From positions 620,001 to 684,000 of the forward strand of contig NZ_PGEX01000001.1 of NCBI RefSeq assembly GCF_002797675.1: 64,000 nucleotides of DNA, given 5' to 3'. The notes beneath the pieces are model-generated. The model had not been told where the DNA came from. It ran no database searches and saw nothing but the letters and a program-made list of their open reading frames with translations. The DNA comes from Hallerella succinigenes (lineage in GTDB: Bacteria > Fibrobacterota > Fibrobacteria > Fibrobacterales > Fibrobacteraceae). Below, one piece after another: positions 55,301 through 63,840 of this stretch. Position 1 is the first letter of the stretch; every line of letters starts with the position of its first letter. A program made the translations under genes and the position numbers.

Positions 55301-56164
55301 ATGGTTACGTTTTCTGACATATCGGATTACCGCGACTTCCTGAAGGAGTATTACGACCGTAAAAAGGCGGAAATGCCCTTCTATTCGTACCGTATGATGG
55401 GTGACAAGCTGGGCCTTGACTCCAGCTATTTGTACCGTGTGCTAAAAAAAAAGCAGCATTTGCCCGCTCATGCCCTTCCGGCCGCCAAGGAAATTCTGGA
55501 ACTGGCCGGTCGCGAGGCCGAGTACTTTGACCTGCTCTTTTCTGCCGCCGTGGTCAAGGACAAGACGAAAAAAGAAGAATTGATGGCTAAGGCTGTCTCT
55601 CTTAGGGACGTGGACCGGCATAGACTCCAGGCCGCGGAGCTCAAATTATTGGAAAACTGGTGGATTCCGGCGGTTCGCGCCTACCTAGAACTAAACGGTG
55701 GCGTGGTGAACCATAAACAAATTTCCAAGGATATTTGCCCCCCGATTACCGAAGAACAGGCTAAAGAGGCCGTAGATACCCTGCTGGAAGTGGGTCTGGT
55801 GAAAAAGATGGCTTCTGGCAAGCTGGCCCTAACCGATGCTCACCTCACGATGGGCGGCCCCGAAAAAAAGGAAGCGGTCCGCAAGTTCCAAAAACAGGTC
55901 CTCGCTTTGGCGAGTGATGCCCTTGATAACATTCCCGTAGACGAAAGAAACATTTCTACTCTTACATTGTCTGTGGACCAGGCCTGCTTTGACGATCTCG
56001 GGGATATGCTCCGGGAATTCAGGCGCCTCGTCCAGAAACGGGTTGATAGTGCCAAAAATTCAGACCGTGTAATGCAGCTTTCTATGGCTTTTTACCCGGT
56101 GGCGCGCAAAGGCGAGGTTGGATCCGTCAACGCAACGGAGGATGCCCAAAGGGAGTCAAAATGA
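55301..56164 (+). CDS. TIGR02147-family regulator-like protein
   Basis: A 287-residue member of the TIGR02147 family (DUF4423-type), a paralogous group expanded in Fibrobacter. The N-terminal third (DFLKEYYDRKKAEMPFYSYRMMGDKLGLDSSYLYRVLKKKQHLPA) looks like a helix-turn-helix. The middle (VNHKQISKDICPPITEEQAKEAVDTLLEVGLVKK) looks like a second winged helix, and the C-terminal part (about 195-260) is a conserved all-alpha/beta domain. No signal peptide. Its stop overlaps the start of the lipoprotein gene as ATGA. A transcription factor for the downstream xylanase genes is the best guess; family members have little experimental characterisation that I know of. Confidence 0.85.
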   Translation: MVTFSDISDYRDFLKEYYDRKKAEMPFYSYRMMGDKLGLDSSYLYRVLKKKQHLPAHALPAAKEILELAGREAEYFDLLFSAAVVKDKTKKEELMAKAVSLRDVDRHRLQAAELKLLENWWIPAVRAYLELNGGVVNHKQISKDICPPITEEQAKEAVDTLLEVGLVKKMASGKLALTDAHLTMGGPEKKEAVRKFQKQVLALASDALDNIPVDERNISTLTLSVDQACFDDLGDMLREFRRLVQKRVDSAKNSDRVMQLSMAFYPVARKGEVGSVNATEDAQRESK

Positions 56165-57486
56165 GATACTGGGTGTGGAAAATGGCTTTTGCAGCATTGG
56201 GTGGAATCTTCGTTGCTTGCAGTACCGATGGAGACAGCGTGGCCGGATCTACCCTTGAAACGGAGAACTCCATTGCGGTGACCCTGACGGTACAACGGGA
56301 AGGCGGCATCCCTGCCGCCCGTTCCAAGGTGTTTGTCCGTCCGGCATACTTCCTGGCAGGTGCCAACAATTATGCTTTTGCCGAAAATCAAGACTTGTCC
56401 GAATCGGATTCCCCAGTAGTGGCATCGGATAGCGCCTTGGGTATCTTGAACTTGGTAACGGACTCTCTGGGCCTTGTGGACTTGCCCCGGCTCAAGCCCG
56501 GCTACTATGTCATCGAAGCCCGTCAAAATATGGAAAGGGCCGCGTCCCGGGTGGTAGTGACGGACAGTTCCGTAGATTCCCTGTCCATGACCGTGCTTTC
56601 TACGGGGGCCATGAAGGGCCAGGTATACCTGCCTGCCGGCATGAAGTCGGTAACGGTGGGCATCCAGGGACTGGACTATTTTGTGCAGACCGACTCCCTC
56701 GGCCATTTTGAATTTGACAACCTGCCTGCGGGTACTTTCAGTGTGGTGGGCTTTGTGTACCGCACCTACGAAAGTACCGGCTCCGACGGCGAACCGGTGG
56801 TCATGAGCAGCTATCTGCAGGTGGGCTCGAGTTCCACAAAGGTCGAGTCCGAAGCGACGGTCGAAGACGTAACGATCGGCCAGCGTCCTATCGAAATCAT
56901 TCCGGATTCTGTCGTATCGGATACCGAAGACGTTTACCCCATCGTCTACTTCGAGGATTTCGAGGACAGTACTCAAGGTTGGTATAAAGGTGTTTCGAAA
57001 TATGGGATTGTCCATGCGCTCGATGCCCAGTATGACACGGAACGGGACGGTCTTGTAGGCCATTTCGTATACCAAACCGACTCTAATTATAACTGGGTAC
57101 TTATGGGCCGTTCCCTAAACGGAATAGTGGACCTGTCGGAGCTGGACTCCGTTGAAATTTGGGCCCGGGGTAGCAAGGGGGATTCTACCCAGTGGCTAAG
57201 CTTCTCCTTCGACGTGCTCATGGATTCCCTGACCCTGGACAGCCTGGGCTACGAAAACGGAAAGTCCTGGGTGCATCTGGAACTGGATACAACCTGGCAA
57301 CGGTATGTCATTACTCCGAAGGACCTTTTAGAAACCGATTCCCTAAAAATCGGAGCTAATCTTGGCTGGGACAACGTAAAGGATCACGTGACTAACCTAA
57401 ACCTCTTTGGCGGTGGTGTCGGCGGTTCCTTCGAGTTCTGGATCGACGACATTACCATTTACGGTGTCAAGCCCTGGGAACCTTAG
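56161..57486 (+). CDS. Surface lipoprotein with Ig-like and CBM-like domains, coupled to the regulator
   Basis: 441 residues. Lipobox IFVAC gives lipidated Cys20. Residues about 38-240 contain two carboxypeptidase-regulatory-like beta domains (LVDLPRLKPGYYVIEARQ; GMKSVTVGIQGLDYFVQTDSLGHFEFDNLPAGTFSVVG). Residues about 258-438 form a jelly-roll domain of CBM11/CIA30 type (YFEDFEDSTQGWY, DSVEIWARGSKGD, FEFWIDDITIYG) that could bind polysaccharide. No enzyme motif. Because it is coupled to the TIGR02147 gene and followed by xylanases, a role as substrate sensor at the cell surface is plausible but inferred. Confidence 0.78.
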   Translation: MRYWVWKMAFAALGGIFVACSTDGDSVAGSTLETENSIAVTLTVQREGGIPAARSKVFVRPAYFLAGANNYAFAENQDLSESDSPVVASDSALGILNLVTDSLGLVDLPRLKPGYYVIEARQNMERAASRVVVTDSSVDSLSMTVLSTGAMKGQVYLPAGMKSVTVGIQGLDYFVQTDSLGHFEFDNLPAGTFSVVGFVYRTYESTGSDGEPVVMSSYLQVGSSSTKVESEATVEDVTIGQRPIEIIPDSVVSDTEDVYPIVYFEDFEDSTQGWYKGVSKYGIVHALDAQYDTERDGLVGHFVYQTDSNYNWVLMGRSLNGIVDLSELDSVEIWARGSKGDSTQWLSFSFDVLMDSLTLDSLGYENGKSWVHLELDTTWQRYVITPKDLLETDSLKIGANLGWDNVKDHVTNLNLFGGGVGGSFEFWIDDITIYGVKPWEP

Positions 57487-57522: not shown

Positions 57523-57549
57523 AAAGCCGATGAAAATCGGCTTTTTTTG
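57523..57549 (+). terminator. Terminator after the regulator/lipoprotein pair
   Basis: AAGCCGAT pairs with ATCGGCTT across GAAA, followed by T-run. It separates the pair from the GH43 gene, which therefore needs its own promoter. Confidence 0.9.
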
Positions 57550-57553
57550 TGGG

Positions 57554-62093: not shown

Positions 62094-62129
62094 GAACATG
62101 GGGCTTTCCCCGTGTTCTTTGTGCTTTTT
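62094..62129 (+). terminator. Hairpin terminator after GH30
   Basis: GAACATGGGG pairs with CCCCGTGTTC (one G-U) across CTTT, with TT after it and a second T5 run a few bases later. Confidence 0.7.
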
Positions 62130-62135
62130 GGGGGG

Positions 62136-62143
62136 TAGTTTTA
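62136..62143 (+). promoter_or_regulatory. Candidate -7 element of the CE6 gene
   Basis: TAGTTTTA inside GGGTAGTTTTA, identical to the element before the GH43 gene, 17 bases from the CE6 ATG. Confidence 0.5.
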
Positions 62144-62160
62144 AGGAAAAGGAGTGTGAT

Positions 62161-63840
62161 ATGGACATGAAAAAAAAGTCCGATTTTTTGACAACGGTTT
62201 CTTGGGCCGTTTGGGGATTGCTTTTGATTCCCCTGATGCTTCAAGCCGCTCCTAATCCCAATTTTCACATTTACATAGCCTACGGACAAAGCAATATGGC
62301 AGGGAACGGCGATATAGACCCAGCTGTAGACCAGGCTACAGCCCCGAAAAACTTCATTATGCTTGCTTCCCATACGGCAAATGCGAGTCAGCGCAGCGGA
62401 AACACGACCCAGTCCATTAAGACAGGAGAATGGGCCGCGGCAATTCCTCCCATGTTCCATGCCTTCGAGAATCTTTCCCCGGCGGACTACTTTGGTCGCG
62501 CCATGGTGGATTCCTTGCCGGGGGTTACGGTGGGTATTATCCCCGTAGCTATCGGAGCTGTAAGTATCAAGGCCTTTGACAAGGACCAGTACCAGGCCTA
62601 CTTCAGTTCTGCCGCAAGCTATATCCAGAGTTGGGCAAAGGACTACGATTCAAATCCTTACCAGAGGATTGTGGATTTAGGCAAGAAGGCCAAGGAAGTG
62701 GGCGTCATCAAGGGTTTTATCTTTCACCAGGGCGAAACCGACGGGGCGGGCACGGAATGGCAAAACAACGTGTATAAGACCTACAAAGACATTGTAGATG
62801 CCCTGGAACTGGACGAAAACGAAGTTCCTTTTGTGGCGGGCGAAATGATGAACGATCCTACGGGAAATTCGGGCCAAGGAAGTTGCTGCTCTAGCAAGAA
62901 CACCGGCATCGCCCAACTAAAGAGCAAGTTCAAGAAATTCGGACTTGCCTCTTCCCAGGGGCTCAAGGGCAACGGCAAAGACCCCTATCATTTTGGCCGT
63001 GAGGGCGTGATTGAACTAGGCAAACGTTATGCATCCGAAATGCTCAAGCTCATCGACAAGACCATTGATCCAAATGCCCCGGAAGTGAACCTGGTGGATC
63101 CGACCCAGTCAACGGTAGCCGATGAACCGCCCGAAGAATATGGACCCTATGGCGATGAACCTGCAACGATTCCCGGTACTATCGAAGCGGAGGAATATAA
63201 CAAGGGTGGCGCAGGCAAGGCCTACTACGACCTAAACAAGGGTAACGAAGGGGGCAAATTCCGCAAGGACGATGTGGATATTTACCAACCCAATATGGGA
63301 TTGTCTATAGGCTATTGCCAAAAGGGGGAATGGCTCAAGTACACGGTAAATGTAACGGCCGACGGTGAATACGAAATTTCAGCCAATGTGGCAGGCGACA
63401 ACGGTACCGGTAGCTTTGTCCTATACATGGATGATGAACGCATCGGCGAAGAAATTCTGAATAACGGAAAGGGCTTTGACACGTACTCCGTGGTAAGCGG
63501 CGGTAAGGTCTCCCTGAAGGCGGGGAAACACGATCTGAAGCTGGAAATCACCAACGACTGGATCGATATCGATTACGTAGAGTTTAAGACTGTAGCGGTT
63601 GCCGATTCGAATACGACAGCGATTGCGAAGGACTTGAAACTTATAACCGAACCCGAAAGCGGCTTTGAACTCTTTGACCTGCGGGGGAAGCGCGTGGCTC
63701 GATTCCGGGCAAGCGGTATGGCGGATGCCCTGAACTATGCCAGGTCGGGAACGATTAATCTGCGTCGTGGAGTTTACCTGCTCCGCGGAAACGTGGCCGG
63801 AGCTACCGTGACCCGCAAGGTAGGCATTTATGTCGAATAG
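62161..63840 (+). CDS. CE6 acetylxylan esterase with CBM6 and FPm-1
   Basis: 559 residues. The signal peptide ends near LQAAP (about 31). The SGNH/CE6 domain (32-300) has nucleophile Ser44 (YGQSNMAG), HQGETD (189-194) and catalytic His277 (KDPYHFGREG). CBM6 follows (about 345-490, EWLKYTVNV...IDIDYVEFKT), then a basic FPm-1 module (about 500-559, FELFDLRGKRVARF...LRRGVYLLRG). It removes acetyl groups from xylan so that the neighbouring GH30 and GH43 enzymes can act. F. succinogenes is known to have CE6-CBM6 esterases. ATG at 62161 follows AAGGAG; the longer in-frame extension covers the terminator and promoter. Confidence 0.92.
   Translation: MDMKKKSDFLTTVSWAVWGLLLIPLMLQAAPNPNFHIYIAYGQSNMAGNGDIDPAVDQATAPKNFIMLASHTANASQRSGNTTQSIKTGEWAAAIPPMFHAFENLSPADYFGRAMVDSLPGVTVGIIPVAIGAVSIKAFDKDQYQAYFSSAASYIQSWAKDYDSNPYQRIVDLGKKAKEVGVIKGFIFHQGETDGAGTEWQNNVYKTYKDIVDALELDENEVPFVAGEMMNDPTGNSGQGSCCSSKNTGIAQLKSKFKKFGLASSQGLKGNGKDPYHFGREGVIELGKRYASEMLKLIDKTIDPNAPEVNLVDPTQSTVADEPPEEYGPYGDEPATIPGTIEAEEYNKGGAGKAYYDLNKGNEGGKFRKDDVDIYQPNMGLSIGYCQKGEWLKYTVNVTADGEYEISANVAGDNGTGSFVLYMDDERIGEEILNNGKGFDTYSVVSGGKVSLKAGKHDLKLEITNDWIDIDYVEFKTVAVADSNTTAIAKDLKLITEPESGFELFDLRGKRVARFRASGMADALNYARSGTINLRRGVYLLRGNVAGATVTRKVGIYVE

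Follow-up and report, generated by a model that had tools for sequence, protein, structure and literature searches.

A recurrent pairing of TIGR02147 genes with genes for tagged, exported partners in Fibrobacterota and other phyla

The RRNPP systems (Rap-Phr, PlcR-PapR, Rgg-SHP and PrgX-cCF10) consist of a cytoplasmic helix-turn-helix (HTH) protein and an adjacent, often overlapping gene for an exported peptide. The gene pair described here, a TIGR02147 gene followed by a lipoprotein gene in Hallerella succinigenes, recalls this arrangement in that the neighbouring product is exported and carries a short conserved segment near its processing site, but several differences are evident. RRNPP proteins have an HTH domain and then a TPR array, whereas TIGR02147 has a predicted winged helix and DUF4423; the regulator of the pair has an HTH in its model, Pfam finds no TPR in it, and PrgX appears in its fold list only at E 0.62. 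Partners of TIGR02147 are usually full lipoproteins of 79 to ~1000 aa and not small peptide precursors, and the hosts are Gram-negative and lack a known importer. Membership in RRNPP is thus not claimed for these cassettes. FlgM-type exported regulators offer another comparison, as the reading of a product before its export would couple gene expression to export. The TIGR02147 pair, however, shows no anti-sigma homology, and its exported member takes the Sec/lipoprotein route rather than a flagellar or type III apparatus.

TIGR02147 (Fsuc_second)/DUF4423 is a paralogous family without an assigned function. A full-text literature search, of limited coverage so that absence from it is no proof, found no mention of TIGR02147 and no description of the pairing. 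DUF4423 appeared once, in a Bdellovibrio proteome table, and searches with the tag sequence returned chance word matches only. A Bdellovibrio hit, locus Bd0108, was discarded as a relative: the neighbours named in the paper are pilus genes, and nothing there points to TIGR02147. The novelty lies in the cassette and its tag as a recurring unit across phyla, for which no earlier description was found.

The two-gene unit of Hallerella succinigenes

The window, the whole 64,000-nucleotide stretch that was analysed, spans positions 620001-684000 of a Fibrobacterota genome that is assembled as a single contig of 3.13 Mb. The features of the two-gene unit lie on the forward strand and are numbered within the window. 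The first gene (55301..56164) encodes a predicted cytoplasmic regulator of 287 aa that matches TIGR02147 at 199.8 bits (cut-off 50) and DUF4423 (PF14394) at 95.7 bits (cut-off 30). Its AlphaFold model (pLDDT 89) contains a putative Xre/HigA-like HTH at residues 8-90 (55322..55570), with HigA-type chains matching at Z ~7-8; a winged helix of MarR/ArsR/HxlR type at residues 107-183 (55619..55849; Z 7-8), where DUF4423 begins; and long helices. The C-terminal helical part of DUF4423 extends over residues 186-269 (55856..56107), and within it R216, T222 and P266 are near-invariant. Because structural similarity is moderate (Z up to 8.2) and Foldseek with the model gave no match below E 0.001, the assignment of two HTH-type domains is made at the level of the fold, and from the fold DNA binding is likely. 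Sequence comparison with the PDB gave weak matches, the best being C.BclI at E 0.03, and these were not used alone. The regulator has neither a signal peptide nor a membrane segment, the maximum 19-residue hydropathy being 0.77. The preliminary description had taken the product for a cytoplasmic HTH protein and had seen no membrane-spanning link encoded in the pair; both points are borne out by the hydropathy and the modelled folds.

The start and stop codons of the two genes overlap by ATGA (56161..56164). The second gene (56161..57486) encodes a lipoprotein of 441 aa, beginning with a signal peptide and lipobox (FVA-C; 56161..56220) that aligns in paralogues; the lipidated Cys20 is invariant across 12 aligned partners. 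Next comes a segment termed here the tag, AGSTLETENSIA, at residues 28-39 (56242..56277) with the core ETENS at 33-37, which is conserved in orthologues and paralogues and nearly specific to TIGR02147 partners. Beta domains follow (56278..56760), with strands seen in the model, and the second appears carboxypeptidase-regulatory-like (Pfam CarboxypepD_reg, E 1.8e-6, under the curated cut-off). Residues 257-438 (56929..57474) model as a CBM11-like jelly roll. This domain matches 1v0a at Z 14.3, with an rmsd of 3.4 over 158 residues, and complex I assembly intermediates containing NDUFAF1/CIA30 (7zkq, Z 13.4). As the whole lipoprotein model has a mean pLDDT of only 59, the fold call leans on the better-modelled C-terminal part, where local values are mostly ~55-80. 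The likeness to CBM11/CIA30 is one of fold; a Pfam search of the lipoprotein sequence gave no CBM11 match, and the fold is not common to all partners. An architecture of two beta domains and a CBM11/CIA30-like last domain, as proposed earlier, is in agreement with these matches.

A strong intrinsic terminator (57523..57551), consisting of the hairpin GCCGAT-GAAA-ATCGGC at 57523-57544 and a T run, ends the unit, and the overlap and the hairpin together agree with the notion of a closed two-gene unit. Downstream are genes for a GH43 protein and then a GH30-type protein, each with a CBM6, followed by an open reading frame (62098-63840) in which the GQSNMAG motif of SGNH/CE6 esterases was recognized by eye. 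The position of the pair directly before a GH43-GH30-CE6 series therefore holds, with the CE6-type assignment resting on that motif. In strain S85, few recognisable transcriptional regulators were noted near cellulase genes (PMC3079729).

Within the window orthologue group the regulators are 73-80 percent identical and the lipoproteins ~35-40 percent; the lipoprotein thus evolves much faster than its regulator. This may represent diversifying selection on a surface protein.

Distribution of the pairing

How general is this arrangement? The Hallerella genome has 13 TIGR02147 genes, one of them a fragment, and in 11 of the 13 the next gene encodes a lipoprotein (one of only 110 aa), usually with a 4-base overlap. 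The two regulators that have no partner are those at 501062 and 1722583, and orthologues of the former also stand alone elsewhere in the genus. Other genomes of the genus show the pairing as well. Of 167 genomes of the phylum, 156 contain TIGR02147, and copy numbers above 20 are common among them; the number of pairs per Fibrobacterota genome ranges from one to more than 50, and in nearly all sampled families of the phylum the next gene encodes a lipoprotein. The same pairing occurs in eight genomes outside the phylum. Among 80 named loci from Bdellovibrionota, Myxococcota, Desulfobacterota, a Nitrospira MAG and Fibrobacterota, 75 show it. A non-redundant collection of 157 regulators (less than 80 percent identity; Fibrobacterota, Myxococcota, Bdellovibrionota, Desulfobacterota and others) has an exported partner, mostly a lipoprotein, directly downstream in 142 cases. 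A later sample of 90 loci was drawn from the phylum to which a Polyangiaceae genome belongs (50 loci, almost all new) and from further Fibrobacterota (40 loci); 78 of the 87 with enough flanking sequence show the pairing. Its frequency is far above chance. The preliminary description had suggested that the two genes function as a pair and that the neighbours of TIGR02147 genes be tabulated; since these genes nearly always precede an overlapping lipoprotein gene, a paired function is well supported.

There are exceptions that involve the second gene. A tagged lipoprotein, SLGNSAESGNPEIAGTI, is encoded at 127466-127585 of the Hallerella genome (L152) with no adjacent TIGR02147 gene, next to what looks like mnmG; it is possible that this protein is a partner in trans of the regulators 501062 or 1722583. 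At 1354494-1355310 (L025; 1354881) a paralogue of the window pair has an intact lipoprotein gene beside a regulator pseudogene with internal deletions and a frame change, the aligned region being 95 percent identical to the orthologue locus. Absence of the regulator thus does not make the partner obviously harmful, unless the window paralogue covers for the lost regulator.

Near two TIGR02147 loci are two open reading frames of 457 aa that share the N-terminus MKTLQFFMYRPPKSHAQ (L021, 1555-2929, and L024, reverse strand). These are probably the transposase of a mobile element.

A short tag in the exported partners

Partners share a tag of ~10 residues shortly after the lipidated cysteine, a feature not mentioned in the preliminary description, of the form G-x(n)-[DE][TVI][GET]N[PTSG]. 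In Fibrobacteraceae it appears as AGSTFETENS, AGTATDTENT, AGGVTDIGNS or AGIEIGNP, and elsewhere as GTETGNP, GTEVGNP or STGVGNP, with deviating tags (GGSEVWG, GTAVGNP, VGNGGD) in some lineages. Five Fibrobacterota partners (L369, L380, L387, L391 and L392) have a shortened GGSEVWG/GGTETVIG without the Asn. Four partners outside the phylum (L172, L186, L187 and L191) have a non-lipid signal peptide and then a VGNGGD-type motif; thus, the lipid anchor is not obligatory.

In the lipoprotein model the tag is disordered (pLDDT ~30). Within orthologue groups it is among the best-conserved parts, while signal peptide and body diverge, and its rate of evolution is about as slow as that of the regulator. 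Codon third positions of the tag vary among 60 partners that have the GNP tag in its strict form. What is selected is therefore the peptide rather than a nucleic acid site, and an RNA or DNA operator within the tag codons is ruled out by this free variation.

The bodies behind the tag are varied. By blastp, 166 tagged partners fall into 32 body clusters, two large ones accounting for 122 of the 166, and the tag persists where the body has been replaced. Partners as small as 79-110 aa retain it, and those of ~100 aa have hardly more than a signal peptide, the tag and a spacer that is of low complexity or contains cysteine. Tandem GG[TS]xxGNP copies, two to four of them, open the mature lipoprotein at five loci in other phyla (L174, L181, L197, L245 and L255), e.g. 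GGTDFGNPKVGGSDFGNPEVGGSDFGNPGQQGGSDFGNP. At another locus (L304, G395 contig 93) a single TIGR02147 gene is followed by several consecutive genes for tagged lipoproteins (KEVSDGGTELGNPDNE).

Is the tag peculiar to TIGR02147 partners? A profile of signal peptide and tag, run over the Hallerella genome, gave ten matches at E up to 1e-10, all of them TIGR02147 partners; the next match was the orphan tagged lipoprotein, followed by other lipoproteins matching via their signal peptides. As the profile was partly built from the same partners, their place at the top of the list is expected and the informative part is the absence of others; the GIEIGNP-type partner was missed. The DNA pattern for GT[DE]xGNP, searched in 14 other genomes, gave 21 matches, 16 directly behind a TIGR02147 gene on the same strand. 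Of the remaining five, two fall in additional tagged lipoproteins within one such cluster, one lies where a contig ends and two are chance matches. The reversed pattern gave a single match in the same genomes. A strict tag pattern is found in 33, 51 and 7 partners of three sets, as against 2.1, 3.3 and 1.0 in shuffles; a loose score (threshold 8) was passed by 23 percent of shuffles, and only the strict pattern was used. In the Hallerella genome, 18 other lipoproteins all lack the strict pattern, which rules out a general lipoprotein signal. A tagged partner was found in 13 of 14 relatives with TIGR02147 and in none of ten genomes, from two genera, that lack it. This joint absence amounts to two independent losses at most, in genes whose linkage would lead one to expect loss together.

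Possible roles of the tag

A co-evolution analysis of the pairs, which had been put forward in the preliminary description, did not yield a contact. Among training pairs, the best signal in the covariation screen was between the acidic residue of the tag and regulator residue 242 (Pagel p 0.0007), but after phylogenetic simulation its family-wise p was 0.17, and a pre-stated test on held-out pairs failed (odds ratio 2.0, Fisher p 0.23). Direct-contact covariation was dropped for these two reasons. Because of the held-out failure, the link between regulator and tag is to be regarded as functional and statistical, not physical.

What, then, is the relationship between the two proteins? A family with HTH folds and no export signal that is accompanied by an exported tag across several phyla, even as the bodies change, is most simply taken as one whose members read the tag. 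The two genes would constitute a dedicated cassette, whereby the regulator recognizes the tag of its partner as a ligand and its HTH domains control transcription of the cassette itself; a probability of roughly 0.4 is given to this reading. The regulator, with its Xre-like HTH, winged helix and helical C-terminal part, would reside in the cytoplasm, and the partner would be exported and usually lipidated. The cognate ligand would be the disordered tag, which follows a G/A-G/S stretch where the mature partner begins. The likeliest place of reading would be the cytoplasm, where the regulator might meet nascent or not-yet-exported partner, such that expression would follow export; alternatively, a released tag peptide might return to the regulator. 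Bodies behind the tag would be interchangeable cargo, CBM11-like in the case of the window. Points against a ligand are the two partnerless regulators, the one tagged lipoprotein without a regulator and the one intact lipoprotein beside a pseudogene. A more specific form of the proposal is unlikely: that the tag itself is a peptide-type signal of Gram-negatives, released or pre-export and bound by its cognate TIGR02147, with many private channels per genome.

The lack of a contact signal on held-out pairs also bears on a different explanation, in which TIGR02147 is an autoregulatory transcription factor for some other cytoplasmic cue and the tag works in the envelope, in sorting, surface display or docking to a third protein, and marks only this class of lipoprotein. 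Like a sorting signal, the tag sits next to the lipid anchor in the exported portion, and conserved orphans exist of both the regulator and the tagged lipoprotein. This explanation is the main rival but somewhat less likely, as the tag is missing from other lipoproteins of the genome, a comparable GN motif is present on non-lipidated Sec partners outside the phylum, and tag and TIGR02147 are jointly absent in two genera; moreover, a pure envelope signal would have no reason to track one regulator family over four phyla. Outside-in sensing of sugar, the candidate reading of the preliminary description, in which the lipoprotein would bind a glycan outside and inform the regulator via a trans-envelope link, is improbable. 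The CBM11-like fold of the window lipoprotein and the xylan-type enzymes downstream of the pair speak for it, but the pair encodes nothing that spans the membrane, many partners have unrelated bodies or just low-complexity spacers, and identity among orthologous bodies drops to ~35-40 percent against 73-80 percent for the regulator. The neighbours of most other pairs in the genome, judged from their open reading frames, do not resemble CAZyme clusters. The GH43-GH30 neighbourhood is therefore not a rule, and sugar sensing does not stand as a common theme of the pairs, given also the variety of bodies.

Two further explanations appear very improbable. An overlapping pair with the HTH protein first, a HigA-like domain and many paralogues per genome would suit a toxin-antitoxin or addiction module, in which the HTH protein neutralizes an exported toxic partner via the tag. 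However, at 1354881 the lipoprotein is intact where the regulator is internally deleted (though a paralogous regulator could compensate), the bodies resemble Ig and CBM domains or spacers, and there is no PADLOC match, on which ground a defence system was likewise set aside. Nor is it easy to see the pairing as lineage inheritance, i.e. an old, much duplicated operon with the tag as a functionless ancestral leftover. Linked genes do duplicate together, but few windows of the protein are as conserved as the tag, which outlasts replacement of the body and is present in tandem copies in some lineages.

Neither half of the pair has a described function, despite the number of pairs in Fibrobacterota genomes, and the tag offers a small element that is directly testable. 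Should a plain autoregulated operon prove to be the case, the cassette would be a variant of a familiar arrangement. If, on the other hand, tag and regulator communicate, this would constitute a signalling or export-sensing principle that extends over at least four phyla.
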